Source of the DNA: a virus
Virus record (IMG/VR): IMGVR_UViG_3300044765_000092
Coordinates: 62,001-126,000 of that record
DNA: 64,000 nt
Direction: 5' to 3' (one strand)
The notes beneath the pieces were generated by a model, which was not told the DNA's origin, did not search any database, and was given only the letters and a program-made list of their open reading frames with translations. The position numbers and the translations under genes are program-made. How positions within the stretch are numbered: the first letter of the stretch is position 1; each line of letters opens with the position of its first letter. Below are positions 3,739-19,097 of the stretch, piece after piece.

Positions 3739-4439
3739 TTAGTTGCTTTCATTACGAATCGTATGTCGAAGGGTGTGACCCCATGCGTACGAGCTACTAC
3801 ATCGATCTTGGCTTCGCCCTTGGCTTGTATGATATTTACAGCCAGCTTAAGACGCTTGACCTCACGAGTTGTCATTAGCACGCAAATCTCCTCACCGCGA
3901 GGACCCAGTCGTTGTAGCTTAGATCTAACTCGTTCAGCACTCATTTCAGAGCGTAGCCACTTATAGACTAGACGCCCGACTTCTATTTCCGGGTCTACGC
4001 GTTTAGCCTTGTGGATCGCTGTCTGTAGCTGTGACATGCAGCTCTGCTTGAACTTGGACAGGACCTCGGCTACCGGACTGTATGCTTGCCTGCATATCAA
4101 CTTCTCATCCCGATGGGTTTGAGCTTTTCGAACCAAGACTCTCAGTGTTTGCAACGTCAGATTGGTATTTGGCACCAGCTCCAGACCAAGCTCTCGCTGC
4201 AGCACCGTCTCTTGATCAACGACCAAGGCTAGGACTCTGCTCTTGAACCGTTTCTGTGTAGTACACAGTAGAGTACCCGATGCAAAGACGACTGGAGTGA
4301 CAGCCAACACCTGCTGGTCGGCGTTCTGTTTCACAAGCCCCTGGCGATTGACAATACCGTAGGCGCAGCCTAATTGGCTTAATAGGTGAGAGAGTTCCAG
4401 CACCGACAACCAGGGTATGCCGTATGCTTCTACAATCAT
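3735..4439 (-). CDS. Unknown 234-residue protein
   Basis: No family was recognised. The N-terminal half is hydrophobic and beta-like; the C-terminal half is basic and helical, ending in GEAKIDVVARTHGVTPFDIR, which looks like a short helix-turn-helix. It sits directly downstream of the Rad50-type ATPase with a four-base overlap, so a role in the same recombination complex is possible but is only inference from position. Confidence 0.55.
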   Translation of the reverse strand: MIVEAYGIPWLSVLELSHLLSQLGCAYGIVNRQGLVKQNADQQVLAVTPVVFASGTLLCTTQKRFKSRVLALVVDQETVLQRELGLELVPNTNLTLQTLRVLVRKAQTHRDEKLICRQAYSPVAEVLSKFKQSCMSQLQTAIHKAKRVDPEIEVGRLVYKWLRSEMSAERVRSKLQRLGPRGEEICVLMTTREVKRLKLAVNIIQAKGEAKIDVVARTHGVTPFDIRFVMKATK

Positions 4440-6652
4440 TTCGGTCTACCTTCGATTAGTGTGGCCTTTCCTCCACGTTTCACCACTGTGACTATTCGAG
4501 CCCCTGGAACCTCCAGGTCTGGGCGTGGTGTTAGGATTACGATCTTTGGGAACAGCTTGTTGAGCACTGGCAACGCCTTGATGAACGCGTCGAGTGCCGC
4601 TGGACCCAAGTTCGACTCGGGCTCGTCCAAGATCAGGGTATCTATCCGCTTGGTATTCGGCTTGAGTACCACATCGGCGATGACCAGCAGCAGAGTAAAC
4701 ATGCGTTTTTCGGCACCTGATAGTCGCTTGACGTCTGAAGTTAGTCCCATCTTACGATGGACCAGTATGTCTAGCCTCTTGTTGTATCTGAATTCAAACG
4801 TGTACGGTTCAGCGAAGAACAGACGCCTGAACTTGTTGACTTGTTCTTCCAACAATGCTGCGTACCTCTTGATCATGTACTGACGAAGACCTGTTTTGGA
4901 ATACACGTCGGCAAATGCCTTGAGGATAGGTAGGTCCTCGCATTGGGCACTCAGAGTCTTGACCCGCTGCTTTAGGTTCTTTATCTGTGACCGTGCTTCG
5001 CGCTGGTGGACCAACTTTGATTCTACCTGGGCCAGCTCGCTGCTAATGGCTGTCAGCTTTGGCGCCAAGTCTCTGAACTCCTGTGCCTGAGCTTTTTGTT
5101 CTTTGGAGAGGGCCAGCACTTCGCGTATCCTGTTGACCAGTGGTTCGCACTGGCGGAAGCGCTCGATCGACGACCTTAGTTTGTCGCGCTGTTCGTTGAG
5201 TTCTTCTTCTGTATGCTTTGGTTGTTCACCCTCAGGCGCATCAGGCTTACTAGGTATTTGTGCCTTTAGCAAAGATGCCGCTTCTAGATCTTTGATCCGA
5301 CCTTGTTCGTCCACATCACCTAACGCCGCTAGATCCGAAGACAGTGCGTCGTACAGAGCCTGCCATTCTTCACGCTGTCTGATGACAGTGTCCGCCCGCT
5401 CGGCTTCGATCGCCTTGTCGTGCAGGGTGCGCCACTTTGTTAGTTCCTGCTCGATATCCTCGGGTGGTCTATGCTTGGCCGGCGCCCCACACGTAGGGCA
5501 TTTGCCAGTCTTGAACTGCTTGGCGTGGGCTCGTTCTTCAAGCAGCTTCTCGATTTGCACCGAACACTTAACCTTGGAGTATTTGACCTCTATTGGCTTG
5601 ACCTTCTCCACAGTCGATAGTTGTGCCGTCAGTTCATCGAGCTTGGCACCAAGCTCTTCATACTTGCGTTTTGTCGCTTTGGCTGCCGCCAAATGGCGAT
5701 CCACATGCTTGTAGTCGAGCTGACGCTCGGCACAAAAATCCTTGAACCTCCGTGCCGCTTTCTTCCACACTCGGAGCTCGGTGGCGTGCTCGCGCCACTC
5801 ACCAAGCGACGCCAGTTCTGTGTTTACTGACTTGAGAACTTGCCGTTCTTTCCTGTACTGGTCATCGAACTCAAGACCAAAGGCGGCTACGTGTTTGACA
5901 TACCACTTGATGAGGTCACTCTGCGCTTCAGCAAACACCAGTAGCTCAGAGATGCGTTGAGACTCCTGAACCTGGGACGCCAACTTCTTCTGCTTGGCTT
6001 TTAGCTTTGCTGCCCGCTCTTCGAGCTCAGCGTATTCAGTGTCTGACACCACATCGGCGCTTGCCGCATCGTATTGCGCTTTGACCTCAGCTAACACGGC
6101 TGCCGTTCGCTGCATTTCAGCGATCTCGGCCAAAAGCAGCTTACGCACGTGATTGATGTCGTCGAGATTGAACATCCCGACCAGGAAAGCTTCACGTTGG
6201 GCGGCAGTCCCCCGGATCAGCGGGTGTGGGATCGTGCTGTCGATGAAGAAGCGGGTGTAGAACTCCTGCTCGGTCATCCCGAACAGACGTTGCAGCTTCT
6301 CCTTCGAATATGCAATGGTGCGGATGTGCGAGTCACGGTCGTTGCGTTCTATCTTGTACGACTTGCGACTGCCCATCGTCTTGGACACACGATAGCGATT
6401 GCCGTCGTTGACCAATTGTATGCCCAGCACTGACTTGATCTTTGATTTGACCGAGTCTTTACCGCTTGGGCTCTCGTCCAGCACGATCTCTGGAATAGCG
6501 CTGATCAGCGCGCTTTTACCAGCCGCGTTTGTCGATCCAGACGCTGCGTCTTTGTTTAGGCCAAGGATCGTTGTGATCCCTGGCGTAAATCGAAAGTCGA
6601 CCTTGTCGAAGACAACATACCGACGAAGGTGCAGGCTTTCTAGTTGTCTCAT
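4436..6652 (-). CDS. Rad50/SbcC/gp46-type recombination ATPase
   Basis: A 738-residue SMC-like ATPase. The Walker A segment lies near residues 31-50 (TNAAGKSALI, after an unusually long GLNKDAASGS loop). Long coiled-coil arms flank a zinc hook near residue 385 (KCPTCGAPAK). The C-terminal half carries the ABC signature RLSGAEKRMF and Walker B TLILDEPESNLGP. The size and order match phage gp46 and bacterial SbcC. With the Mre11-type nuclease at 8062-9892 it would form the complex that resects double-strand ends for recombination-dependent replication. The two genes are separated by the clamp loader and two small genes on the same strand. Confidence 0.9.
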   Translation of the reverse strand: MRQLESLHLRRYVVFDKVDFRFTPGITTILGLNKDAASGSTNAAGKSALISAIPEIVLDESPSGKDSVKSKIKSVLGIQLVNDGNRYRVSKTMGSRKSYKIERNDRDSHIRTIAYSKEKLQRLFGMTEQEFYTRFFIDSTIPHPLIRGTAAQREAFLVGMFNLDDINHVRKLLLAEIAEMQRTAAVLAEVKAQYDAASADVVSDTEYAELEERAAKLKAKQKKLASQVQESQRISELLVFAEAQSDLIKWYVKHVAAFGLEFDDQYRKERQVLKSVNTELASLGEWREHATELRVWKKAARRFKDFCAERQLDYKHVDRHLAAAKATKRKYEELGAKLDELTAQLSTVEKVKPIEVKYSKVKCSVQIEKLLEERAHAKQFKTGKCPTCGAPAKHRPPEDIEQELTKWRTLHDKAIEAERADTVIRQREEWQALYDALSSDLAALGDVDEQGRIKDLEAASLLKAQIPSKPDAPEGEQPKHTEEELNEQRDKLRSSIERFRQCEPLVNRIREVLALSKEQKAQAQEFRDLAPKLTAISSELAQVESKLVHQREARSQIKNLKQRVKTLSAQCEDLPILKAFADVYSKTGLRQYMIKRYAALLEEQVNKFRRLFFAEPYTFEFRYNKRLDILVHRKMGLTSDVKRLSGAEKRMFTLLLVIADVVLKPNTKRIDTLILDEPESNLGPAALDAFIKALPVLNKLFPKIVILTPRPDLEVPGARIVTVVKRGGKATLIEGRPK

Positions 6653-6807: not shown

Positions 6808-7004
6808 GTGTAGTGCTTTATGGCGATGAACACAAAGTCGATCAGGACGCTGAGACCAATGACCACGGCAATACCCATGTCTTTGTGCTCCGGGGTCTTG
6901 ATCTTGCCGGACCACAGCATGATGAACAGGACCACCATGCCAAAGATAGGCAACGCAGGAGCTGGCCAGTCTAGGAACCAGACTGCGAAATCATGAGCGT
7001 TCAT
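6804..7004 (-). CDS. Small two-helix membrane protein
   Basis: A 66-residue protein with two predicted membrane segments: LPIFGMVVLFIMLW and MGIAVVIGLSVLIDFVFIAI. The short charged linker between them contains KIKTPEHKD. It overlaps the clamp-loader gene upstream and the Cys/His gene downstream by four bases each. Holin or inner-membrane accessory roles are possible, but nothing in the sequence decides between them. Confidence 0.6.
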   Translation of the reverse strand: MNAHDFAVWFLDWPAPALPIFGMVVLFIMLWSGKIKTPEHKDMGIAVVIGLSVLIDFVFIAIKHYT

Positions 7005-8065
7005 TTGACAAGCAACCCCAGAACGAACTGCTGAACAAGCGCAATGTCTGGCACGCCGGAAAACGCACCGATCTGTGCCTTGAGCTGGACTACCCGCTGA
7101 TGAATCGCGCCGATCTTGTTCAGATCCTGCTTACCTACGGCCGATATCAGGTCTCGGTGTGACTGCGACCACCAGACAGCAGAGTGCTTCTCACCTTCGA
7201 GTACAGCAGTGTTTAGCAAGAACGAATTGAGGGTCAACAACTTGGTGGCAAACCCAAAGCCATTGCTGATGTCGAGCGCACAGCGAAGTGCGGCCTTGAG
7301 CTTGCCAGTATAGACGGCTACTAGCGTACGGACCGCCAATTTCTCGTCTGACATATCCGAGTCGGCAATCGCACCCTCAACATCATCGACCGTGACCTTC
7401 CCTCCATTGGTTGCCGCCATCTGGGCCAAACCTTCGAGGATTGTGGCTGCAGTCCGCATCTCGCCCATCGAGTTTTCGACCACTTGAGCAGCAATCTGCT
7501 TGGTCAAGAACGTCATTTGTTCGCCCTTGGCCACGCGCTTGACATACTTGAGGATATTGTCTCGTGACGGCGTTGACAACGCGAACACCGATGTCCGATT
7601 GCGCACCGCCCGATCGATCTTCTCCGGTTCCATCGTGCACAAGATCCACATAGTCTTGGGTGCAGGACGTTCCAATGGCTTGAGCAGCAATTGCTTGGAC
7701 GGTCCGGTCAGTTGCTGCGCTTCGTCGATGATGAACACACGACGAGGAGCCATACGTGGTTGCAGTGCCGCCATCTTCAACAGGTCACGTAGATCGTCGA
7801 TGCCCCGATTGTCTGCCGCATTGATGATGTGGCAATCCATGTGGCCCTCGATCGACTTGATCGGCTTTTCGCGCCCCTTGTTGAACAAGTCGGCTACCAG
7901 AGCCATTGCCAGCGTGGTCTTGCCCACGCTGGTTGGGCCTGTGAACATCAAGGTCGAGGGAATCTTGCCGGTCTGCACAATACCCTTGAGTCGGGCTACC
8001 TGTTTTTCGTGGCCGATCACTCGGTCTAGGGTGCGGGGCTGGTACTTGATGTAGAGGTTGCTCAT
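7001..8065 (-). CDS. AAA+ clamp loader subunit
   Basis: A 354-residue AAA+ ATPase starting SNLYIKYQPRTLDRVIGHE, the classic clamp-loader opening (KYRP..f..viGq). Walker A is GPTSVGKTT at residues 43-51 and Walker B is FIIDEAQQLT near residues 111-120. The sensor 1 region reads WILCTMEPEKID, and the position of the arginine-finger SRC motif is VRNRTSVF, so the Cys is not kept. The C-terminal 150 residues are helical and match the collar domain. It would open and load a sliding clamp for the family A polymerase. No clamp gene was recognised in this window. Confidence 0.88.
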   Translation of the reverse strand: MSNLYIKYQPRTLDRVIGHEKQVARLKGIVQTGKIPSTLMFTGPTSVGKTTLAMALVADLFNKGREKPIKSIEGHMDCHIINAADNRGIDDLRDLLKMAALQPRMAPRRVFIIDEAQQLTGPSKQLLLKPLERPAPKTMWILCTMEPEKIDRAVRNRTSVFALSTPSRDNILKYVKRVAKGEQMTFLTKQIAAQVVENSMGEMRTAATILEGLAQMAATNGGKVTVDDVEGAIADSDMSDEKLAVRTLVAVYTGKLKAALRCALDISNGFGFATKLLTLNSFLLNTAVLEGEKHSAVWWSQSHRDLISAVGKQDLNKIGAIHQRVVQLKAQIGAFSGVPDIALVQQFVLGLLVK

Positions 8066-9892
8066 TTGGACGTTAGTTGTTTGATGCGCTTGAATCCGCG
8101 CTCGATCTGTTCGGGTGTCAGTTTGTGCTTCTGGATCAGCAAGTCTTGGACTACAGCCTGCTGCTCCGACTCATTTACACCAGCCTCGACATCATCGAAC
8201 TCCCACTCCATGGCAATCAGTTCTTTGAGGTCGTTCTTGTCCTTGAATTTGTTGTGGCGGACCACATTGGTGTGCGTGGTCAGTATGTCGTTGATGTCCA
8301 GGTCTAGTCCATCGATGACAAACAGCTTGTAGAGCTTGCGTGGATCCTCGTCGATACTGTCGAGATCGGACTCACGTTCGACTGTCAAGTTGATGAGTTC
8401 CCACGGCGGCTTGAACGGAATGTTCTGAACCTCTAGGTGTCCGTCTTCCCACTTGCAGTGGTGGAAAAACTTGGGCATCGATTCGCCAAAGGTGGTCTGA
8501 TAAAGTGTACCACTGTACCATGTGTTACGGACCCAATGACAGGTATGGAGATGCCCCATAACTGTATGGTGCTTGGTCCGGATCTCAGAGTCACGTTCTT
8601 CGATCTTACGCCCATTATCTCGAACGGCACCTGCGACTTCAAAGTGTCCGACATTGAGAGCCTCTTTCTTGGTCTTGACATGAGGGTACGGCATCAGGTG
8701 GAATGGTTCACCTTCCAGCTCGATGTCACAGCGATTGGTATGAATGGACAGCGATGGATGCAGGTGCTTACCCACATGCTCTAGCACCTGAAGACTATGC
8801 GTGCCGTCCTCAGCAAAATCGTGATTCGAAATGTTCAGCCCGTTTCGCTACGACGGGCCCGCCTTTCGGCTGCTGCATGTCACCATGCAGACCAGACTAT
8901 ATCACCCTCCAAGTTGGAGGCTCTCCATTTCGAGCGCCAATAGCTTGCGCCCTACGTCTTTCGACTAGTCGTTGCACCTTACTCAACTCGCACGCGGTTT
9001 CCACAAATGTTTCCAAGTACGCTCCGTCCATACGTTAATGACAGAGGTCTCGGTCACGTCATGCAGCGCAGCAATCTGTCTAGCCGCATCTCTGCGTGCA
9101 AAATTCCGACTGCCGTCTGTTGTAGAGCCAGGGTCTAGCTTCTTGATCCTGCGTACATCCCTTTCAGTCAGTACTGAACGACCATTGCTTTCACCCACAA
9201 CGTCAAGCAACTTAGTACGATGTGCATGCGCAGCGTTTCCCGCTCGTGTGACGTACTCAAGATTCTTGACCTTGTTATTGTGCTTGTTACCATCGATGTG
9301 GTTCACATGACGTGAGCGCTGCGGCCCAATGAACAGATTTGCAACTGCTCTATGGATAGCGACACTATACGTCTTAGTGCCTCGACCAAGACCTCGCCCA
9401 CCGGCATGAATCTTGACTTTTCGGCACGCTATTAGATAACCGTTATGAACTCTCATGTGCGTGTATCCACGGACACCGCCCTTATCAGAGAATTCCACAC
9501 CGGACTTCTTGTGAAGTTTCCACATAATCACCACCTTTCTATCAGGCGGCGAGTCGAGTCTTGGCTCAGGATTGTCTCTTGCGAGAGTTCCCCTGAATTA
9601 GAAGAGTTTGCTTGCCGCATTACTACGACAAGGGGCTAATTCAACCCAGTATGAATCGGATGTCTAGCTCGCGGTATTTCTTTCTCGTCAGTGCTCGGTA
9701 CAGCGCGATCTGCGCACCGTACGAGAGCCTCGGCTTTTCGGCCACGTCTCCATATTGAATGACAGTCTTGACCCCATGTTCCAACGCGTAGTCGAAGACC
9801 CTGCACATGGACTGTGCGATCAACGTACTGGCCTCCGGGATCAGGCTGTCTAGCTTATCGAAGTGGAGATCTCCAAACCCAACAAAGTCCAT
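8062..9892 (-). CDS. Mre11/SbcD/gp47-type nuclease, split by a group I intron
   Basis: The coding sequence is join(9892-9644, 8826-8062) on the minus strand, 337 residues. Exon 1 holds metallophosphatase motifs DLHFDK and YGDVAEK and stops at ILG, right before an in-frame TGA. Exon 2 resumes with NHDFAEDG, completing the GNHD motif; GHF and the GHLH motif follow (residues about 143-177). Both exons are exact multiples of three bases. Reading exon 2 alone from the ATG at 8787 would give a protein without its metal ligands. With Rad50 (4436-6652) it would process DNA ends. Exact splice sites come from motif continuity and group I rules. Confidence 0.88.
8827..9643 (-). mobile_element. Group I intron in the Mre11-type gene
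   Basis: The intron is 817 bases long. The 5' exon ends GGGT and the intron contains GCCC seven bases later, giving a P1 helix with the required U-G wobble at the splice site. The last intron base is G at 8827. Conserved core pieces are present on the minus strand: AATCCTGAGCC (9573-9563, the Q element), TGCAACGACTAGTCG (8976-8962, R) and GATATAGTCTGG (8903-8892, S). GACTA in R pairs with TAGTC in S to form P7. The insertion lies between Gly and Asn of the catalytic GNHD motif. Confidence 0.87.
8983..9525 (-). CDS. HNH homing endonuclease encoded in the intron
   Basis: A 180-residue protein. Start 9525 is chosen because AGAAAGGTGG precedes its ATG; the in-frame GTG at 9534 would lie inside that site. 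The HNH core reads HRAVANLFIGPQRS, then HVNHIDGNKHNNKVKNLEYV, then NAAHAHRT, as in I-HmuI-like phage enzymes. The C-terminal part contains VLTERDVRRIKKLDPG and ARQIAALHDVTETSVINVW, which looks like a NUMOD-type helix-turn-helix for target recognition. It lies wholly inside the intron and should cut intronless alleles of the Mre11 gene to spread the intron. Confidence 0.87.
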   Translation of the reverse strand: MWKLHKKSGVEFSDKGGVRGYTHMRVHNGYLIACRKVKIHAGGRGLGRGTKTYSVAIHRAVANLFIGPQRSRHVNHIDGNKHNNKVKNLEYVTRAGNAAHAHRTKLLDVVGESNGRSVLTERDVRRIKKLDPGSTTDGSRNFARRDAARQIAALHDVTETSVINVWTERTWKHLWKPRAS

Positions 9893-9895
9893 CCA

Positions 9896-10543
9896 TCAAC
9901 CCTTATCCGTGTATCGGCCAGTCCAATTCTTGTGGTGTGGACGGTGCCCGGAGCACACTATGTGCATACATCCCTGATGGAGTCCATGTTCATCGCAGAA
10001 CTCCTTAAGATTCCTACCTGAATAGGTTTGACCATCTGGTGACTTCACTTTGAACAATCGACTCTGGCGCTCAGCTTTCTTTGCGATATACTCGTGAGTA
10101 CGTTTGTTGCGATTGCGATATTCTTCCGCCATTGCTGCCATAGCTGGTCGCGTATCTTTGTTGTAATCTGCACGCTTCTCAATAGACCGCTCACGACCAC
10201 CGTTTGAGACCCATTCTTCGTAGTTCTGTTCAAACGTTATGAAGCGACAGTTTCCCACTTCGTAGTCTCCATTATCACCTATGCGTCCTAGCTGATACTT
10301 CCCGGGGCGGTTTCCTATCTGATTGGGTGAAGTCAAGCCAGCTCTTAACGCCAGCTTTAGGTATTGCTGAAACGACAGCTTAAGATCGCCACGATCTTCG
10401 TGCTTGGAGTTTCGCCTCAACGTGAGGTACTTGCTGTACCATAGCTCGGCTAGTCTGTTTGAAAAGCCCGCAGACTTGGCAAACTCTATTGCGGCTTCGC
10501 GGCGTTTGCGAGCCTTCTTCCTGTCAAAGACGCCCTTTGGCAT
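9896..10543 (-). CDS. Free-standing HNH-type homing endonuclease
   Basis: A 215-residue basic protein. The core reads YQLGRIGDNGDYEVGNCRF then ITFEQN, a common shape for phage HNH-like endonucleases (GRIDN.GNY..GNCRW). The C-terminal part, SPDGQTYSGRNLKEFCDEHG, resembles the NUMOD1/IENR repeat used for DNA binding. Start 10543 is the first ATG; an in-frame GTG at 10576 would extend it by 11 residues and overlap nothing. Its stop lies four bases from the Mre11-type start, so it is wedged between two genes without breaking either. It may target a site in the neighbouring region. Confidence 0.72.
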   Translation of the reverse strand: MPKGVFDRKKARKRREAAIEFAKSAGFSNRLAELWYSKYLTLRRNSKHEDRGDLKLSFQQYLKLALRAGLTSPNQIGNRPGKYQLGRIGDNGDYEVGNCRFITFEQNYEEWVSNGGRERSIEKRADYNKDTRPAMAAMAEEYRNRNKRTHEYIAKKAERQSRLFKVKSPDGQTYSGRNLKEFCDEHGLHQGCMHIVCSGHRPHHKNWTGRYTDKG

Positions 10544-10576
10544 TTGTATCACCAACGAACTCGATTTTGTCCTCAC

Positions 10577-11122
10577 TCAGATGTCGGTACTGACTATCGT
10601 ACATTCACACCCAACGGACGGTGAGAATGTTCCAGCGGCCATGATCGCGTGCTTCAACGCTTTCACGTACTCATCGGCGTTACCGTTTTTGAATGCAGTA
10701 TTGACTGACGTGTGTAGCGAGCCCAACGCATACTCGTAACCAGAGCCACAAGCGTCATAGCCCTTGACTGACCGTAGGACCGAGAAGTCGTCTTGCATTT
10801 GCCACAGTTGACCACGCACGCCTATCAAGCAAGTTCCGCCCTTTTCATAGTCGGCGTCTTTGAGGGTCTTCTTGATGTCTCGCACAAAGACTGAGATCAA
10901 CCACCTATAAACCTCGTCTTCCTCTTTGGGAATAACGGGGTCCGGTAGCCCGTGTTCAAGCAGTTGTCCGAACCTGTAGCTCGTGGTGTACCCGACCACG
11001 AGTCCGTTCTTTTTGAAGACCTTGGGTTGGGTGTGGACTACCTTATTGTTCCAACCCGTACCCTGCAGATCACCTGCAAGATACACACGTCCACTGTGCT
11101 CGATTCCTACGATACAGGTCAT
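10577..11122 (-). CDS. Proteasome/HslV-like Ntn hydrolase (first of two)
   Basis: A 181-residue protein starting at ATG 11122 with MTCIVGIEHSGRVYLAGD. After removal of the Met, Thr1, Asp17 and Lys33 fall exactly at the catalytic positions used by HslV and proteasome beta subunits. A glycine-rich strand (LVVGYTTSYRFGQLLE) follows, as does YDACGSGYEYALGSL, similar to the conserved SGS region. The longer frame to 11191 is rejected because it overlaps the next gene and would bury the Thr. A peptidase or amidase activity is inferred from these residues. A second, distinct member lies at 36293-36712. Confidence 0.7.
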   Translation of the reverse strand: MTCIVGIEHSGRVYLAGDLQGTGWNNKVVHTQPKVFKKNGLVVGYTTSYRFGQLLEHGLPDPVIPKEEDEVYRWLISVFVRDIKKTLKDADYEKGGTCLIGVRGQLWQMQDDFSVLRSVKGYDACGSGYEYALGSLHTSVNTAFKNGNADEYVKALKHAIMAAGTFSPSVGCECTIVSTDI

Positions 11123-11132
11123 TACCTGGCCC

Positions 11133-11399
11133 TCAGGCTGTTTGTGTGAGACGAATAACCACCGAAGGTCCGTTTGTGACGACAATAGCAACCTTTGAGC
11201 TACCCTGCCGATGGATCACATGGACGTGGGCAGACTCCAAAGGATGGACCTCAACAAAGTGCGCCAGTGACTTGACGATGTAGGTATCTATTTGCTGTAT
11301 TTCTACTGACTCAGGTGGGTGAAATCCAGTGTTCAACATGTCTCGCACGTAGAACGTATCGGTCTCGGTCAAATAGCTGTGAGTGATTCGCATGTTCAT
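11133..11399 (-). CDS. Unknown 88-residue protein
   Basis: The ATG at 11399 overlaps the stop of the upstream mini-gene as ATGA, which supports this start; another ATG lies two codons in. The sequence contains HVHVIHRQGSSKVAIVVTNG, suggesting a small alpha-beta fold. It lies 10 bases upstream of the Ntn hydrolase start and is probably co-translated. No family was recognised. Confidence 0.55.
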   Translation of the reverse strand: MNMRITHSYLTETDTFYVRDMLNTGFHPPESVEIQQIDTYIVKSLAHFVEVHPLESAHVHVIHRQGSSKVAIVVTNGPSVVIRLTQTA

Positions 11400-11578: not shown

Positions 11579-11824
11579 TTACTCCTTGGCAGGCTTGCTG
11601 ATCAGATGCTCAAGACCAATTGTGTCGAACTCTGGTGGCGGGCCTAGCGTCGTATCCGAGCCCGCGTCCTTGAGACGCTTCTGAATCTCAGCGAGCTCTT
11701 CTTTGGTAGGTGTGTACGATCGCGACGGCTTTTGTTCACCGCCCTTGATCACCTGGTAGCCAGGACCAGATTCCAACACTTCGACCGGTAACCAGCTTTT
11801 TCGCGGGAGTTCGGGTTCACTCAT
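11579..11824 (-). CDS. Unknown 81-residue protein
   Basis: Start 11824 lies inside the last codons of the recombinase gene, giving an eight-base overlap (ATGAGTGA). A longer frame to 11950 lies within the recombinase and is rejected. The protein has a Pro-rich start and a helical charged middle (KEELAEIQKRLKDAG). No family was recognised. Position suggests co-expression with the recombinase. Confidence 0.5.
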   Translation of the reverse strand: MSEPELPRKSWLPVEVLESGPGYQVIKGGEQKPSRSYTPTKEELAEIQKRLKDAGSDTTLGPPPEFDTIGLEHLISKPAKE

Positions 11825-13433
11825 CGCTTTCTCCTTCGCCGTCATCAGACGAATCGCCTTCCGAGTCAACATCTTCCACCTTCTTGTCGTTCTGCGCGTG
11901 GAACAGCTCCATGCCCCTGCCCTTGGCCATTTGCTTGAAGCAGTGATCACGCAGTACCATTGGCTTGCACCCCATCTTCAGGCAAATGCCCTTGATGGTC
12001 TCGCGATCGCCCAGGATCAAGCGCTTGAAGTCCAACCACTCGATAGGTTTCTTGGCCTCGTTGTTCTCGAACTTGAGCAACATCTTCTTGCGCTTGCCAA
12101 CCACTTGACCAGTGGCCTTGAGATACTCGTACACGTCAAACACAGGATCGAAACCGCGAGCGTTACCTCCAGCATCCTCTTTCCAGAGCCGGATCCAGCC
12201 CTTCTTGGCCCCCGTACCTAGCTTGTTCTTGATGCTCTTGAGGAAGATATACGTGTACTCGTCCGACCCGTTCTTCAGTTCGACGCTCGGTTCCTTCTCA
12301 ATCGGCTCCTTGAACCCCGACTTGGCGTCCACATACTGCTTAGCCTCAGGGGCACTGCTGATGGCTCGCACCTCGAATTGGGTCCGGCAGTCTGAGTAGA
12401 ACTTGACAGCATTACCTGCTGGCTCGTACAGAGGGCTGCCGTAGCGGACCATCGGCCTTTCCCGTAGCTGATTGATGCCCTTGATGATGATGCGCTTCTT
12501 ACGCATCTTGCCCTTGACCCGTGGAATCTGTTCGGAGAACATACGGGCTACCGCACCAAGACCTGCACCCTGACTGTCATCGTCCAGGCGTTCTGGCAGC
12601 ATCGCCGGATACGAGTCCAGTACGATCAGTGCTTGCGCACTACCGTCTTGGGCCTCGACATAGAACTTGTTGTGGGTCGAGAATTTGGTCTTGTCGTATT
12701 CAACACCATCGTCTGCCAGTGCCTTACGATTGGCCTTGGTGTTCTCGTACACATACCACCATTTACCACCCTCGTAGATCTTGTCTGGCAGATGTCGTTC
12801 GAGCATGGCCACGAAATCGAAGAACGTCTCGGCCACCGCTTCAGGGTAGTATCGAATACGTGGCTTGATCAGATACTTGCCCTTGCTATCGCGCTTGCCA
12901 AATACCTCATCGATGCTGGCCTTGATGTTGAGTGTGCGCAGAATGTTTTCCATGTACTGCGCGCTAGACCCAGTCGAACCTTCGTAATCGAATAGTGCGA
13001 TGATTGGAACGCCCTGCGAGACCGCGCTACCGATCGTAGTCATGGCGTCGGTGGTCTTACACGACTGCTCCATACCGCGATTCGTGTACCAGCCGGGGCT
13101 CAGACCACCACCCAAAAGCAGGTCGTGCGCCAAGTTTCCGGTGCTAAGGCGCACCTCGTTCTTGTTCATGCCGACAGAGTTACTGCCAACCTTGCGCTCG
13201 ATGTCGCCGAGTACCGTGTCTACATCCAGGCCGTAGATCTTGAGCGGTACTTTGAGTCCCTTGCCGAACATGTCGCCCGGTGTCACCTTGTCTTCCTTGG
13301 TGACTCGGTGCTTCGAGTTTTCCTTCTCTTTGGCAGCACGACGCTTAGCCCGTGCTTCTACTCGCGCTTCCAACCCCTTGGCCTTGGTGGCTGTCTGCTT
13401 CGCAGTTTTGGTTGCTGCTACCTTACGTGGCAT
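11817..13433 (-). CDS. RecA/UvsX-type recombinase
   Basis: A 538-residue protein. The first 50 residues are Lys/Ala-rich and are an extension not found in RecA. The core has Walker A at residues 120-128, GMEQSCKTT, where the glycine before Lys is replaced by Cys125 (TGT codon). Walker B-like ALIVLDSYPAM follows. The L2/KxR region, INQLRERPMVRYGSP, then AGNAVKFYSDCRTQFEV, matches RecA closely (GGNALKFYAS.R). The C-terminus is very acidic (DVDSEGDSSDDGEGESDE). It would form filaments on ssDNA for strand exchange. It ends after a hairpin terminator that separates it from the SSB gene. Confidence 0.85.
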   Translation of the reverse strand: MPRKVAATKTAKQTATKAKGLEARVEARAKRRAAKEKENSKHRVTKEDKVTPGDMFGKGLKVPLKIYGLDVDTVLGDIERKVGSNSVGMNKNEVRLSTGNLAHDLLLGGGLSPGWYTNRGMEQSCKTTDAMTTIGSAVSQGVPIIALFDYEGSTGSSAQYMENILRTLNIKASIDEVFGKRDSKGKYLIKPRIRYYPEAVAETFFDFVAMLERHLPDKIYEGGKWWYVYENTKANRKALADDGVEYDKTKFSTHNKFYVEAQDGSAQALIVLDSYPAMLPERLDDDSQGAGLGAVARMFSEQIPRVKGKMRKKRIIIKGINQLRERPMVRYGSPLYEPAGNAVKFYSDCRTQFEVRAISSAPEAKQYVDAKSGFKEPIEKEPSVELKNGSDEYTYIFLKSIKNKLGTGAKKGWIRLWKEDAGGNARGFDPVFDVYEYLKATGQVVGKRKKMLLKFENNEAKKPIEWLDFKRLILGDRETIKGICLKMGCKPMVLRDHCFKQMAKGRGMELFHAQNDKKVEDVDSEGDSSDDGEGESDE

Positions 13434-13508: not shown

Positions 13509-14978
13509 TTAGAACGGAACATCGTCGTCATCATCGTCATCATCGTCGTCGGAGCGCTTCTTTCCGCCCTTCTTGGCCGACTTTGCGACAGGCTTGGAAC
13601 CCTTCTTGCCACTCTTGGCAGGCGGTTCATCCTCGTCGTCGTCCTCGTCGTCATCCTCATCGAGGTCGTCATCGTCCTCGTCATCGACGGGTTTGGATTT
13701 GCCTTTCTTCGCCGTGGGCTGCTGCTTGGCCTTTCCTTTGTTGCCCTTTTTCGGTGGAGGATCGTCGTCTTCCTCGTCATCGTCTTCGTCGAGATCGTCG
13801 TCATCCTCATCTTCGTCCTCGTCGTCCTCGTCTACGACGCGTGAACTCTTCTTGGCTGGAGGTTTTGCCTTACCCTTCTTGACACCCTTAACTGGAGGCT
13901 CGTCCTCGTCATCGTCGTCCTCATCGAGATCATCGTCATCGAGATCGTCGTCCTCATCCTCATCCTCGTCTTCGTCGACGGGCTTTTTCTTTCCGCCCTT
14001 CTTTGGTGCTGGCTCGTCATCCTCGTCTTCGTCGAGGTCGTCGTCATCGAGGTCGTCATCGTCCTCGTCATCGTCGTCGACTGGTTTCTTACCCTTCTTG
14101 GCGGTAGTCGCGGCCTTGCCCTTCTTACCCTTGGGTGCCGCCTCATCGTCCTCGTCATCGTCGAGGTCGTCGTCTTCATCCTCGTCTTTGCGGCCCTTGC
14201 CTTTCTTCTTGTTGGAGCCGCTTTCGTCGCCGTCCTCGTTACGCTTGGCCCACGATTCGAACTCGCGTTGTGCGTCCTTGAGCTTCAGCGGGGTCAGCAG
14301 CTTTTCGATATTCCACAGCAGGTAGTCCTGCTCTTCTTCAGTCAGCGGGCTCTTGTCTGCCTTCTGCACCGTGTACTTCTTGGACGCCACCTTTTCGTTC
14401 GGGTCGTACATGATGTTCACGTCACAACCAAAACGCTCGTCCGACAACGGGTAAGCCTTTTGCTCACCAGTCTTCTTGCTCTTGTGGCGGTTCAGGCTAC
14501 CGAGCTTCTTCAGCTCACGAACCAGACTCTGAGTCAAACGGACAACACGCACAGGTGTCCACGCCTTGCTGCCCTTTTTCTTGAAGCCAGACTCTTCTTC
14601 GTCTGGAGTTGGCTTACCCTTCTTGGCTGGTTCGTCTTCTTGAACCGAGCGAATGATGGCATTGACGTAGAAGTCCTTGCTGGAACGGATCTTCTCGGAC
14701 TCGGCCTCGCACCACGGACATTCCTTGGTGCTGTCAATCTCTTCGGTTTCCTGATCAAAGGCCAAGCACGTGACCGGGAATTGGGTTGTGCCCCCGGCCT
14801 TTTTCTTGGTCGTCACCCAATGGCGACCGTAGGCCACGATCGGGCCAACAAATCGCATCTGCACCCATTCGTTGGCTGGGAACGTTGCCATGTCCACGAT
14901 GTCTTCGACTCGTGGCTCTTTGTCCGCAGATACCTTTGCATCCTCAAAGGTACGGTTGCTCTTAAATTTTGCTTTCAC
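13509..14978 (-). CDS. Single-stranded DNA-binding protein with long charged tail
   Basis: A 489-residue protein started by GTG 14978 with GGAG ten bases before. Residues 1-250 hold the likely ssDNA-binding core, with a CPWCEAE motif near residue 84 that may be half of a zinc site as in T4 gp32. Residues 255-480 are a low-complexity tail alternating acidic runs (DDDEDDDDLDDDDL) with basic KKGKK and KPV blocks, about seven cycles. The final residues, DDDDDDVPF, match the SSB acidic tip (DDDIPF) that recruits partner proteins. It lies next to the recombinase, as expected for a recombination mediator. The tail is far longer than in known SSBs. Confidence 0.78.
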   Translation of the reverse strand: MKAKFKSNRTFEDAKVSADKEPRVEDIVDMATFPANEWVQMRFVGPIVAYGRHWVTTKKKAGGTTQFPVTCLAFDQETEEIDSTKECPWCEAESEKIRSSKDFYVNAIIRSVQEDEPAKKGKPTPDEEESGFKKKGSKAWTPVRVVRLTQSLVRELKKLGSLNRHKSKKTGEQKAYPLSDERFGCDVNIMYDPNEKVASKKYTVQKADKSPLTEEEQDYLLWNIEKLLTPLKLKDAQREFESWAKRNEDGDESGSNKKKGKGRKDEDEDDDLDDDEDDEAAPKGKKGKAATTAKKGKKPVDDDDEDDDDLDDDDLDEDEDDEPAPKKGGKKKPVDEDEDEDEDDDLDDDDLDEDDDDEDEPPVKGVKKGKAKPPAKKSSRVVDEDDEDEDEDDDDLDEDDDEEDDDPPPKKGNKGKAKQQPTAKKGKSKPVDDEDDDDLDEDDDEDDDEDEPPAKSGKKGSKPVAKSAKKGGKKRSDDDDDDDDDDVPF

Positions 14979-15363: not shown

Positions 15364-16069
15364 GGGTATTACGCGCTCCACCAGTATGTAGGGTTTTACG
15401 TTGAAGCCAGGACTCCAACGCATTCATCAACTTCAGTTTATCGTGGCGATCGGCTGTCCACCGCCTAATCGACGACCGAAGAAATCTAGTCTGAATCAAC
15501 AGTGTGCCGTTCAGCAGTGTGGGCATACGATAGTAGTAGAGTCGAGTGCCATTCTGTTCACGCATTCGGTCTATCAACCCAGGATCGTTGGACCATGTTA
15601 TGCCCAACACTTCTTGCGAACTAAAACCACAAAGGTAGATCGGCATGTCAGATGACAGCAGCGCCAACTTAGGCTGACTACTGGTCACGCTGATCGACGT
15701 ACAGAATCGACCTACAGGACTAAAGATCTTTGAGTGTAGAACCTGCAGATAGGTAGCACCTTCGCTATCGATGCTATCGTTGATGTTGAGCAGTGAGTGG
15801 ACTAGCTGTGTGCTAGTCATGCTCGGATCCCCCACCTGGAACACGCTTATGGTCGTGCCACGATTCGGCACATAGACCTTGTGAAAGTCGGTGGAATGGG
15901 CTCCGTGCAGGAAGTCCAGATTGTTTAGCGTACCTCCTGAGGGTAGCATCTGATGGTTGCCGATTTCCATCCGGTCAGACGGGAACATCGGAAAGTTGAA
16001 CGGGTGAGCCTGATGTGCGTCCAACACTAGATAACCGTACAGCCCACCTGTCACACTATTGGAGTCCAT
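15356..16069 (-). CDS. Unknown 237-residue protein next to DNA polymerase
   Basis: The start overlaps the polymerase stop by 14 bases, and the end overlaps the next gene, so it belongs to the replication operon. The sequence is beta-rich and could be a sliding-clamp-like fold (several strands with LHSKIFSPVGRFCTSISV and KLALLSSDMPIYLCGF), but no motif proves this. If there is a phage clamp to match the clamp loader at 7001-8065, this gene is one candidate by position and size. That is inference only. Confidence 0.5.
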   Translation of the reverse strand: MDSNSVTGGLYGYLVLDAHQAHPFNFPMFPSDRMEIGNHQMLPSGGTLNNLDFLHGAHSTDFHKVYVPNRGTTISVFQVGDPSMTSTQLVHSLLNINDSIDSEGATYLQVLHSKIFSPVGRFCTSISVTSSQPKLALLSSDMPIYLCGFSSQEVLGITWSNDPGLIDRMREQNGTRLYYYRMPTLLNGTLLIQTRFLRSSIRRWTADRHDKLKLMNALESWLQRKTLHTGGARNTHD

Positions 16070-19000
16070 CGAGTGTCACCTTATCCCCAGGTTTCACACC
16101 CAGGATCGGATACTTGGTATCGAGATACTTCTTGAGTTTCTTATTCCGATACGGGGCCCAGATCTTGTCGAGTGCGCGCTTCACCTCCTTATCGTTCTTC
16201 AACTGACCGATCTCCTTTTGCTTGTCAACGACCTTGGTTATGATCTGCTCTAGCTGCGGGTGCGAGAAGTCCCACTTGAGCGCGTCAGCTTCGGTGGCAC
16301 CGAACTCCATCTCGATTTCAGGCTCGATCGTGAACTCGAATCCATAGACCTTCTTATAGTGGTCTGTCACGCCATAGGTCGCGATCCACTGAAGCACGTG
16401 AACGTAGATGAGCACTATATCATACGGGACCTCGGCGTATAGCGCATCATGCACCATCTTCATAATGGCCGTTGGCAACTCCTTGGTCTTGTTATCGATA
16501 TAATGCCATTCGGTTAGCACATCATATAGTGCGAGCTCGACTAGTCGAGCGGCTGTCACCCCGATCTGGCTTGCTAGACCCTGGATTGGACTGTTCTTGG
16601 CCTTGCGGTCCATGCTGCTGATGATGCTGCCGATACCAGTGAGCATGGCGAACAGATTACGCCGCATACCAATCGGGCTGTAGGTATAGCAGTGCTCACG
16701 AGCGTGGTTGACCGACCACTCCAGCCATTTGGAGGCTTTGGGAAACGCCTTGTACAGACGGGCCATAAGATCCTTGGCAAACTCGACAGTGTTCTTGACG
16801 TCGCGTGCCAGGGTCTGCGCGCCCTTGCCGTAAATCACACCGAAGATCACCTTCTTCACCGCGTCGCGCAGCGGATCAGACTTGTCCACCACCTTGTTGA
16901 AGAAGAACTTGACGTTGATGATGTGCACGTCACCATCGGTCTTGATCTTCTTAGCGTACTCCTCCGTTGGATTGAGCCGGAATATTTGTCTCAAGCGTTG
17001 GCCAACTCTGAACACGTTGGCGAGCTTGGTGTCGTTACCCACGTAAGACCAGACGCGTACCTCGTGCGCCGAGTAGTCGAACTTGACGTGGATTGTGCCG
17101 CGTGGGCTAACGAACATCCGCTTGATGTACTTGGCCTCGTCTCCGTGAGCCGGCACCTGATGCAGCGACGGATTGCTAGAATTCAAGCGACCGGTTACGA
17201 CGTCAAAGAATCCATAGTCAGGTCGCAGCCGAAAGTCCTCGCGACTATCCGGATTCTTGACCATCTTGGCATACCAGCCCTTGACATAGGTTCCCCAGAG
17301 CTTCTGCAGCTTAGAGTACCGTGTGAACAGGGCTACCACTGGATTCTCTTTGTACGCAGCGAGGAAGTGCTTGTCCAACATAGGACGCTGCGTCTTCTTG
17401 CTGTGCATCAACGGTTTGAGCTGTAGGACGCCCAGGAACAGAATGGCCTTGTGTTCCCACTTGCCGAGGTTCAGGACTGTCGGCACCTTGCTGAACAGAC
17501 CTTTCTTCATAGTCTGATTCGCAGACTGCTTGAGCACTGTCCTGTTTGCACGCTGAGCTTCAGGCGTAGCCAAGATCTGCTTCTTGGTCTCATCCATCAG
17601 CTTTAGAAGTGGGCTCTTTTCACCCTTTAGGTACTTGAGGTACTCAATGTCGATGTGCATGCCACGCTGGCGCGTGTGCGACAAGACGTGACACGTATCA
17701 GAGAACTGCGTGAGAACCAATCGCTTGAAGTACGGAGCATAGGGCTTGCCACCAATTTCCAGGTCACCAGCCTGCTTGATCTGCATCAAGTGGATGCCGA
17801 CAATCGACTGCACGTCCATTGCACCGTAGGCCAAGAAATCCTTGTTGTCGATCTTTGTGAGCGCCGCGTTAGCTCGATCGTCCTTGCCAAACACTGCCCG
17901 CATGTAATGGTCATTGCCATAGCTCAGGAAGATTTGGTTCAAACCCCCGTGCGGCGTGTTGTACGGAGCACTGGACAGGAATCTCATGTTCTCATCCAGG
18001 CAGTATAGCCCCGCCATGATCTCCCACACAGGCAAGAAGATCAATGCCAGACCGAATTCTTTACGCAGGATCCGCAGGTCGAACAGCGAATACTGGATGA
18101 TCAGGTATTTGACCTTTGTGTCGCCCAGTCGCTGGCCGAAGAACTTGCGCATTCTCTTACGCATGTGCTTAAGGTCTTCCTGTGTCCACACAGGATACGG
18201 TGGATCACCCTTACCCGTCCACGGTTCTGCTCCTGTTGCCTGAGGATGTCTGTATGGCAGAACATAACCGACCTTGGTACTGGTCGCAAACTGAATGGTG
18301 TGGATTGCGTTGTGGTTGACCGAGGTATTGCGGGTCTCTGTGTCGACCGCAACGTACTCACTGGACTCCAGGTGGTCCATCATCTTGTCGAACATCGCGA
18401 TCGACGTGATGAGCTTAGGATTAGCCTTGATGTACGACAGATCGTACAACTGCTTCTGCGCCAACGCATTGGCCAGATTACGAACTACATAGAAGAGGAG
18501 GTTGGCCTTGCTAAAGACGTCCGAGTTATCATCGTCGTCATCATCAGCTTTCTTGGCCAGTTCTGCCTTGCGCGCCGAGTACATCGGGAAGATGTCGAGC
18601 GTGCTAACGACATTGCGCGTGTGCCCACCGAGCTTTGCTTGGTGTACCCATCCACGCTTCATTGGCACGTCCGAGACCTCGGGCAGGAGAGTAGACGCGG
18701 CGTAATCGCCAAAGACGATCACGTCGGTAGGATTGAACTGACGAGCTATCACATGGATGCGCTTTGCAAAGCGCTTGCGATAACCCGGCCACGTCTCCAT
18801 GGGTTGATCCATGAATTTGTGGTTGTTGAAGTTCACAGCCATGAATGCCACTCCCTTTGGACTGTATCCAAACTTGGCGGCGGCCCATTCCTGGGCCTTG
18901 TTCATGACGTTCACAAAAACAGTGCGAGACCGATTGAACAGAAGAGCTTGTTCGGCAAGATCCTCTGAGTCAATGGTCTCGACAATCAGCATGATACGGC

Positions 19001-19097
19001 GCTTGGCCTTATCCCAATTGCTGCTGATAGGCAATGCCAGATTGTAGTCGCCCTCAATGCGCTTGACTTGAGGACGGATTCGTTTATCCAACTGCAC
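16056..19097 (-). CDS. Family A DNA polymerase with UDG-like N-terminal domain
   Basis: A 1013-residue protein. Residues about 90-180 carry DVIVFGDYAASTLLP and MKRGWVHQ then VVSTLDIFPMYS, resembling family 4 uracil-DNA glycosylases, a family historically named after phage SPO1 DNA polymerase. The 3'-5' exonuclease has DTE near residue 250, FDLRIL and YGAMDVQ. The polymerase has motif A VKFDYSAHEVR near 674, motif B RDAVKKVIFGVIYGKG near 750, and motif C MVHDALYAEV near 882, where the usual HDE is HDA. An acidic linker, DDDDDDN, sits near residue 190. It is the replicative polymerase. Confidence 0.92.
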   Translation of the reverse strand: MQLDKRIRPQVKRIEGDYNLALPISSNWDKAKRRIMLIVETIDSEDLAEQALLFNRSRTVFVNVMNKAQEWAAAKFGYSPKGVAFMAVNFNNHKFMDQPMETWPGYRKRFAKRIHVIARQFNPTDVIVFGDYAASTLLPEVSDVPMKRGWVHQAKLGGHTRNVVSTLDIFPMYSARKAELAKKADDDDDDNSDVFSKANLLFYVVRNLANALAQKQLYDLSYIKANPKLITSIAMFDKMMDHLESSEYVAVDTETRNTSVNHNAIHTIQFATSTKVGYVLPYRHPQATGAEPWTGKGDPPYPVWTQEDLKHMRKRMRKFFGQRLGDTKVKYLIIQYSLFDLRILRKEFGLALIFLPVWEIMAGLYCLDENMRFLSSAPYNTPHGGLNQIFLSYGNDHYMRAVFGKDDRANAALTKIDNKDFLAYGAMDVQSIVGIHLMQIKQAGDLEIGGKPYAPYFKRLVLTQFSDTCHVLSHTRQRGMHIDIEYLKYLKGEKSPLLKLMDETKKQILATPEAQRANRTVLKQSANQTMKKGLFSKVPTVLNLGKWEHKAILFLGVLQLKPLMHSKKTQRPMLDKHFLAAYKENPVVALFTRYSKLQKLWGTYVKGWYAKMVKNPDSREDFRLRPDYGFFDVVTGRLNSSNPSLHQVPAHGDEAKYIKRMFVSPRGTIHVKFDYSAHEVRVWSYVGNDTKLANVFRVGQRLRQIFRLNPTEEYAKKIKTDGDVHIINVKFFFNKVVDKSDPLRDAVKKVIFGVIYGKGAQTLARDVKNTVEFAKDLMARLYKAFPKASKWLEWSVNHAREHCYTYSPIGMRRNLFAMLTGIGSIISSMDRKAKNSPIQGLASQIGVTAARLVELALYDVLTEWHYIDNKTKELPTAIMKMVHDALYAEVPYDIVLIYVHVLQWIATYGVTDHYKKVYGFEFTIEPEIEMEFGATEADALKWDFSHPQLEQIITKVVDKQKEIGQLKNDKEVKRALDKIWAPYRNKKLKKYLDTKYPILGVKPGDKVTLDGLQ

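Follow-up and report, generated by a model that had tools for sequence, protein, structure and literature searches.

A Predicted Proteasome-type Ntn Hydrolase Encoded among Phage DNA Replication Genes Fits the AAH Type or a Sister Group

Results

The Ntn Hydrolase Gene Lies among Replication and Recombination Genes

The window (the whole 64,000-nucleotide stretch of DNA analysed, which comes from a 238-kb virus record that may be a fragment) encodes on its minus strand a 181-residue proteasome-like Ntn hydrolase that fits the AAH type (10577..11122, read from 11122 down to 10577); the plus strand of 10577-11122 is full of stops. The protein is M-TCIVGIEHSGRVYLAGD, and removal of the Met would leave Thr1 (codon 2), Asp17, and Lys33, together with Ser126 and Gly43, the likely oxyanion residue. 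Among the 1247 start codons of the window, on both strands, that are followed by at least 100 sense codons, that of the Ntn gene is the only one to place Thr, Asp, and Lys at positions 1, 17, and 33.

All of the neighboring genes described here are likewise on the minus strand. Upstream, an ORF for 88 amino acids with no family in Pfam or PHROGs (11133..11399) has its stop codon 10 nt before the Ntn start codon, and beyond it lie a UvsX/RecA-like recombinase gene (11817..13433; Pfam RecA, 3.3e-17; phrog_97, 2.6e-35) and a DNA polymerase gene (16056..19097; 38.5% over 99% to Achromobacter phage Motura, and annotated as DNA polymerase in Burkholderia phages). On its downstream side, the Ntn gene directly adjoins an HNH-endonuclease-like ORF (9896..10576; phrog_2081, E 5.9e-16; no Pfam match above the cut-off). 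This is followed by an SbcD/gp47-like gene in two parts, N-terminal (9641..9892; phrog_100, E 3.5e-4) and C-terminal (8062..8787; phrog_100, E 8.8e-11), split by a probable group I intron (8873..9652) that contains an HNH endonuclease ORF of its own (8983..9534; Pfam HNH_3, 4.4e-8; phrog_59, 2e-24). The intron candidate has no Rfam match at the gathering threshold, RF00028 reaching 35.4 bits (E 1.8e-6) against a gathering score of 50. Further downstream are an ORF that, from the look of its sequence, we take to be a clamp-loader-like AAA+ protein (7001..8065), weakly similar ORFs flanking the gene in relatives, and an SbcC/gp46-like ORF (4436..6652) with 21% identity (E 8.7e-5) to the SbcC of the related viral locus L004, which itself matches phrog_77 at 7.3e-84. 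The gene had been proposed to sit in a DNA replication operon beside a homing endonuclease, and the UvsX/RecA-like, split SbcD, SbcC-like, and DNA polymerase genes together with the HNH-type ORF bear this out.

Searches of the 238-kb record found neither AAA_2 above the cut-off nor ClpB_D2-small, and an unfoldase could have been missed there because the record may be a fragment; a second Ntn copy was likewise not found in this possibly partial record. After the polymerase genes, a 489-residue protein (13509-14978, minus strand) is marked in its C-terminal half by very long repeats rich in Asp and in Lys; it has no Pfam family at E 0.01 and may be a single-strand-binding protein ending in an extreme acidic tail.

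Profiles and Structure Prediction Point to a Proteasome-type Fold

The window protein is matched by the HMM of PHROG 1040, "peptidase HslV family" (E 6.8e-23), a label also borne by records in T5-like, Vibrio, Geobacillus, and Aeromonas phages. The Pfam Proteasome family reaches E 0.087, below the cut-off, and matches 13 of 94 relatives at E 0.01. A phmmer search with the single window protein found no relative in the PDB; a profile of the 94 relatives finds HslV (1m4y, E 4.7e-8), BPH (5ovu, E 1.5e-5), and proteasome beta subunits.

AlphaFold2 with the 94-sequence alignment gave a single-chain model with a pLDDT of 96.0 and a pTM of 0.91; a single-sequence model (pLDDT 38.5) was meaningless and was set aside. 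The model has helices at 49-58, 68-89, 129-143, and 149-166 and a last strand at 174-178, without a C-terminal helix. In a Foldseek search against the PDB, BPH (5ovs) is the top match (E 1.1e-10, TM 0.79) and HslV is next; VIA-align comparison with the top 1000 Foldseek matches gives BPH 5ovt a Z of 21.3 (rmsd 2.2, 168 residues aligned) and HslV 3ty6 a Z of 20.3. Structure prediction hence yields the proteasome-type fold, with BPH and HslV as the best matches and no confident match to another fold. As modeled, the protein has the core of the proteasome-like family, namely the S1-S11 fold with an N-terminal Thr/Ser1, Asp17, and Lys33, and on this model it is confirmed as a proteasome-type Ntn hydrolase. 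Among predicted viral structures, the first match, presumably the protein of Salicola phage SCTP-2 (188 aa), has E 4.1e-25 and 42% identity, and 35 viral proteins pass E 0.001, which argues that the fold is common in phages.

The Catalytic Residues Are Invariant and Thr1 Directly Follows the Start Codon

Seeds at residues 45-52 (viral) or 43-51 (bacterial) led to the relatives, and we kept the 80 best loci of each kind, out of 374 confirmed viral and 206 confirmed bacterial ones. From 176 loci, we removed L008, where the window's own gene runs on the reverse strand, and four Rhizobium loci (L108-L111) because of an in-frame stop after codon 38, and merging identical copies reduced 172 rows (window included) to 148, of which 80 are viral (the window and annotated phages among them) and 68 bacterial. 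T1, D17, K33, and G43 are invariant in 148/148 distinct relatives, a count that is free of seed bias for T1, D17, and K33, as they lie outside the seeded stretch, and biased for residues 43-52 (for G43 in the bacterial rows), as the seeds came through that stretch. Retention of Thr, Asp, and Lys in homologs, on which the original prediction depended, is thus complete in this sample. The profile places T1, D17, and K33 on T1, D17, and K33 of HslV, in agreement with the predicted HslV/proteasome beta spacing, and G43 on HslV G45. We take HslV G45 to be the equivalent of proteasome G47, and the invariant Gly43, judged by its sequence position, is likely the oxyanion Gly; Ser47 as a substitute for the oxyanion Gly47 was dropped, as the HslV alignment makes Gly43 the equivalent. 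Residue 126 corresponds to a supporting Ser of BPH and of the proteasome; the window protein and 17 of the 18 rows of the clade described below have Ser there, and 96/148 overall have Cys. A distant relative in Tenacibaculum phage Larrie, a weak match (E 3e-3), has Ser in place of Thr1.

Thr immediately follows the start codon in 175/175 forward-strand loci, some near-duplicates among them. In 11 of the 175, an in-frame stop lies immediately 5′ of the start codon, so that a propeptide is impossible there. The Rhizobium loci L108-L111 have one in-frame stop after codon 38, just beyond Lys33, common to the four records; it may reflect a decaying copy or an error common to all.

The Protein Fits AAH Better than HslV

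In their survey, Fuchs, Alva, and Lupas (2021) describe 22 proteasome homologs, PPH and AAH among them, with AAH as a group I homolog that many phages carry and PPH as a protein of ∼140 residues without helix H2 that also occurs in phages (PMC8665760). The window protein shares with AAH its size, T1/D17/K33, the lack of a propeptide, the four flanking helices, the host range of the bacterial relatives, and the occurrence in phages. Like the AAH subunit, the modeled protein is compact, with helices H1-H4, and has neither an insertion nor a C-terminal S12/H5 nor a propeptide, and the AAH distribution (Alphaproteobacteria and Actinobacteria, phages) is also that of its relatives: 35 Alphaproteobacteria and 33 Actinomycetes make up 68 of the 80 bacterial loci (the best 80 of 206 confirmed). 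The clade to which the window protein belongs differs, however, from AAH as described in being phage-only in our sample, in a pore loop shorter by ∼7 residues, and in signature residues of its own.

HslV has a similar fold (Z 20.3), the same T1/D17/K33 spacing, and a short pore loop, but at ∼15-20% identity it is a separate family, and no HslU-like gene was found in the window record, possibly a fragment. Most HslV members have a propeptide, according to the survey (PMC8665760), in contrast to the start codon abutting Thr here. BPH (5ovs, 5ovt, 5ovu; PMC5777263) is alike in fold, active-site set, lack of a propeptide, and lack of a known partner unfoldase; it is 18% identical to the window protein, and its pore loop is long and acidic, whereas that of the window clade is short (9 residues in the window protein, DADYEKGGT). 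PPH (phages and their hosts) and RPC (with a C-terminal extension) are likewise phage-borne proteasome-like proteins, but the window protein, with 181 residues and a 22-residue helix at 68-89, lacks their traits of ∼140 residues and no helix H2. Length, helices, missing propeptide, and kinship together place the protein not in HslV but in or beside AAH. By the published description it fits AAH, or else a group that is sister to it, with CPH also possible.

HslV as a family label therefore gives way to AAH as the better fit, and the name of PHROG 1040, which implies HslV, is misleading. Nor are such peptidases rarely noted in phages, as had been stated: 181 of 50,697 phage records match by tblastn, none at more than 60% identity, a PHROGs family exists, and PPH and AAH are both reported from phages in the survey (PMC8665760). 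With AAH reported in many phages and 181 phage records matching, the family is an already known one.

The Window Protein Belongs to a Phage-only Clade

In a tree of 33 rows, the window protein, 16 viral loci, and Salicola phage SCTP-2 share one branch (support 100/99, length 1.4), with the bacterial rows outside it; several outgroup branches are long and many inner forks weak, and the window-clade branch alone is used here. The clade is phage-only in this sample, given that the best 80 bacterial loci are all ≤42% identical to the window protein. Its signature residues are Gln19, Tyr48, Phe50, and Ser113, and its pore-loop segment has 9 residues in 17 of 18 rows and 12 in the remaining one, whereas 124 of the 130 rows outside the clade have 16; two of these outside rows, L043 and L099, also have a short pore loop.

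Neighbors Vary around Replication, Nucleotide, and Packaging Genes

The window clade has 17 loci with neighborhoods (the window and 16 others), for which neighbor counts are purely descriptive. Counting up to two co-directional genes from the Ntn gene, 13 of the 17 have a neighbor with a role in replication or recombination, the neighbors having been family-scanned in part. SbcD and/or SbcC lie within two genes in 4/17 (the window, L017, L004, and L019), flanking the Ntn gene exactly in L017 and almost so in L004; the window is counted because SbcD is its second gene downstream. The four are not independent, since SbcD of L004, L017, and L019 cluster; the window SbcC, by contrast, is just 21% identical to that of L004. 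Elsewhere in the clade, the Ntn gene is preceded by a DNA polymerase and followed by a clamp-like gene (L002), accompanied by the phrog_11778 DNA polymerase family (L020, L001, L005, and L024, the last two by clustering), or near a DNA ligase (L032-L035, with L033-L035 by clustering). L030 has a tRNA nucleotidyltransferase, and L031 has the terminase large subunit directly after Ntn; among the neighbors scanned, those of L007 and L026 gave no family match.

Among 20 annotated phage records, dCMP deaminase, ThyA/ThyX, DHFR, or ribonucleotide reductase is encoded within three genes of the homolog in seven (SCTP-2, XacN1, Geobacillus E3, Yersinia R2-01, TrudiRoth, Pumpernickel, and Larrie), of which Pumpernickel and Larrie are weak matches and R2-01 and TrudiRoth represent one lineage. 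On the other viral branch, terminase, portal, head protease, and major head protein are common (87 upstream and 132 downstream proteins). Taken together, these neighborhoods point to expression alongside genes for phage DNA metabolism or packaging rather than to a single fixed partner.

The idea of a two-gene alpha/beta-like pair, suggested by two adjacent genes listed in Vibrio phage R16F and in Aeromonas phages, was rejected: the second gene is not Ntn-looking in R16F and is PPH/RPC-like in Aeromonas phage 4L372D, and the window record is single-copy. Two kinds of proteasome homolog thus adjoin in one phage, 4L372D (L182 737-2190), where the gene directly after an AAH-like one is PPH/RPC-like and has a C-terminal extension.

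The Gene Is Optional in T5-like Phages and under Purifying Selection

The Ntn proteins of TrudiRoth and Yersinia phage R2-01 are 94% identical (dS 0.62, dN 0.027), and L032 and L033 of the window clade have a dS of 1.23 and a dN of 0.067, giving dN/dS of ∼0.04 between the two Epseptimavirus copies and ∼0.05 for L032/L033. The tested copies are under strong purifying selection. TrudiRoth and R2-01 hold the Ntn gene in the stretch between thy and rnh; in T5 these two genes are separated by 133 nt, and a search of T5 segments (40-70 kb of AY543070 and 50-70 kb of AY692264) turned up no Ntn relative. The gene is therefore optional for T5-like phages, and selection maintains it in the genomes that carry it. 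Movement of thyA and Ntn as one cassette was rejected, since ThyA is 32% and Ntn 94% identical between R2-01 and TrudiRoth.

Discussion

Phage genes of this family were catalogued in 2021, and the window protein adds a member of a phage-only clade. Such genes are named in genome papers on Salmonella phage pSal-SNUABM-04, Alteromonas phage V22, and Citromicrobium phage RXM. In the literature searched, which covers few subscription journals, we recognized no functional study of phage proteasome-like proteins, and the accessible part of a T5 gene-fitness paper does not mention HslV or the proteasome (PMC11879866). The 2021 survey reports that neither genomic context nor an AAA+ partner suggested a function for these homologs (PMC8665760).

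The account that we consider probable, with some reservation, is that the protein is an active threonine peptidase of the AAH type or a sister group, made with phage DNA-metabolism genes, assembled into a ring, independent of an unfoldase, and directed at one or a few targets. Building on the computed fold, residues, absence of a propeptide, selection, and neighborhood, we infer how it might work. The host would supply the deformylase and methionine aminopeptidase that expose Thr1, and this residue would attack peptide bonds assisted by Lys33 and Asp17, with Gly43 in the oxyanion hole. Most likely, the protein would self-assemble into a ring that encloses the active sites and act without a dedicated phage unfoldase, and its targets might be one or a few proteins, host or phage, important during phage DNA synthesis, a timing read solely from gene order. 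The behavior of BPH, the lack of an HslU-type unfoldase in the record, and the single Ntn copy favor such an unfoldase-independent, target-specific peptidase. The description of BPH reports that the start Met is lost (mass spectrometry), that epoxomicin binds at Thr1, that double rings of 14 form, that standard peptides and casein are not cleaved, and that HslU is not bound in pull-downs (PMC5777263). Several points count against the account: no AAH activity is known and BPH is inert on standard peptides and casein (PMC5777263); the clade shares its short pore loop with HslV, an enzyme dependent on HslU; an unfoldase could have escaped notice in a record that may be a fragment; there is no conserved partner gene, and other branches lie beside terminase and head genes; and residue 126 is Cys in 96/148.

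The main rival is a replacement HslV: the protein would recruit an unfoldase of the host, either HslU or some other AAA+ protein, and so redirect host proteolysis. We regard this as unlikely. HslV position 35, which is basic in the HslV chains compared and may contact HslU, although a literature search gave no confirmation of such a contact, is Phe in 142/148 relatives. The short pore loop of the clade and the lack of an unfoldase among the genes found in its own 238-kb record speak for borrowing, the short HslV loop being tied to gating by HslU in the survey (Fuchs 2021, PMC8665760), whereas BPH, the nearest solved fold, bound no HslU in pull-downs (PMC5777263). That the enzyme is instead a non-specific peptidase turning host protein into amino acids seems quite unlikely: the proteasome fold and the listing of the V22 gene under protein catabolism suit such a role, but BPH was inert on casein and many peptides (PMC5777263), no partner unfoldase was found, and the neighbors are DNA-metabolism or packaging genes.

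The fold itself does not dictate the reaction, in that connectase is a proteasome-like protein ligase (PMC8665760). A specific transpeptidase or protein ligase of this kind, rather than a hydrolase, is nevertheless highly improbable, as connectase is described there as lacking the first helix pair (PMC8665760) and the window model has helices 49-58 and 68-89. A head-assembly or packaging protease has equally little probability; terminase, portal, head protease, and major head protein near many relatives outside the window clade, and the terminase large gene of L031, would suit it, but the same neighborhoods also contain ordinary head maturation proteases, and the window and most close relatives neighbor replication genes. 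Another reading, which we rate as very unlikely, is that the phage-only branch works with the Mre11-Rad50-type nuclease (SbcCD, gp46/47) and the replisome, removing or trimming proteins that are attached to DNA ends and forks by binding or crosslinking, or else destroying a host end-binding defense such as RecBCD. Either action would allow recombination-dependent phage replication to proceed, and if true this would be a virus-encoded proteasome-like enzyme devoted to DNA ends.

Phage proteasome-like proteins are widespread, and Epseptimavirus phages growing on E. coli K-12 (such as TrudiRoth, bas30_0067, with the relative near thymidylate synthase and RNase H) offer a tractable system. Should the peptidase act during phage DNA synthesis, its target would reveal what has to be cleared away for the phage to replicate, and the enzyme might yield a tool in the form of a small, regulator-free threonine protease.

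Some relatives have further features. In Vibrio and Pseudoalteromonas relatives, C-terminal extensions of ∼100-200 residues follow the Ntn domain (L183 4001-4867, L184 4001-5167, and L193 4001-4984), and in Vibrio phage R16F a stretch similar to these extensions is a separate gene; their identification as DNA-binding domains was rejected, with no credible Pfam match up to E 10 where scanned. Peptide deformylase is encoded two genes upstream of Ntn, or nearly so, in Vibrio phages 2.058 (L180 3498-5531) and V6Aob (L191 3283-4528); deformylation must precede the removal of the start Met that would expose Thr1. In Escherichia phage 121Q (L189 3065-4597), the HslV-like gene has a Sir2-like gene downstream and, two genes upstream, a gene annotated as a ClpP-like protease.
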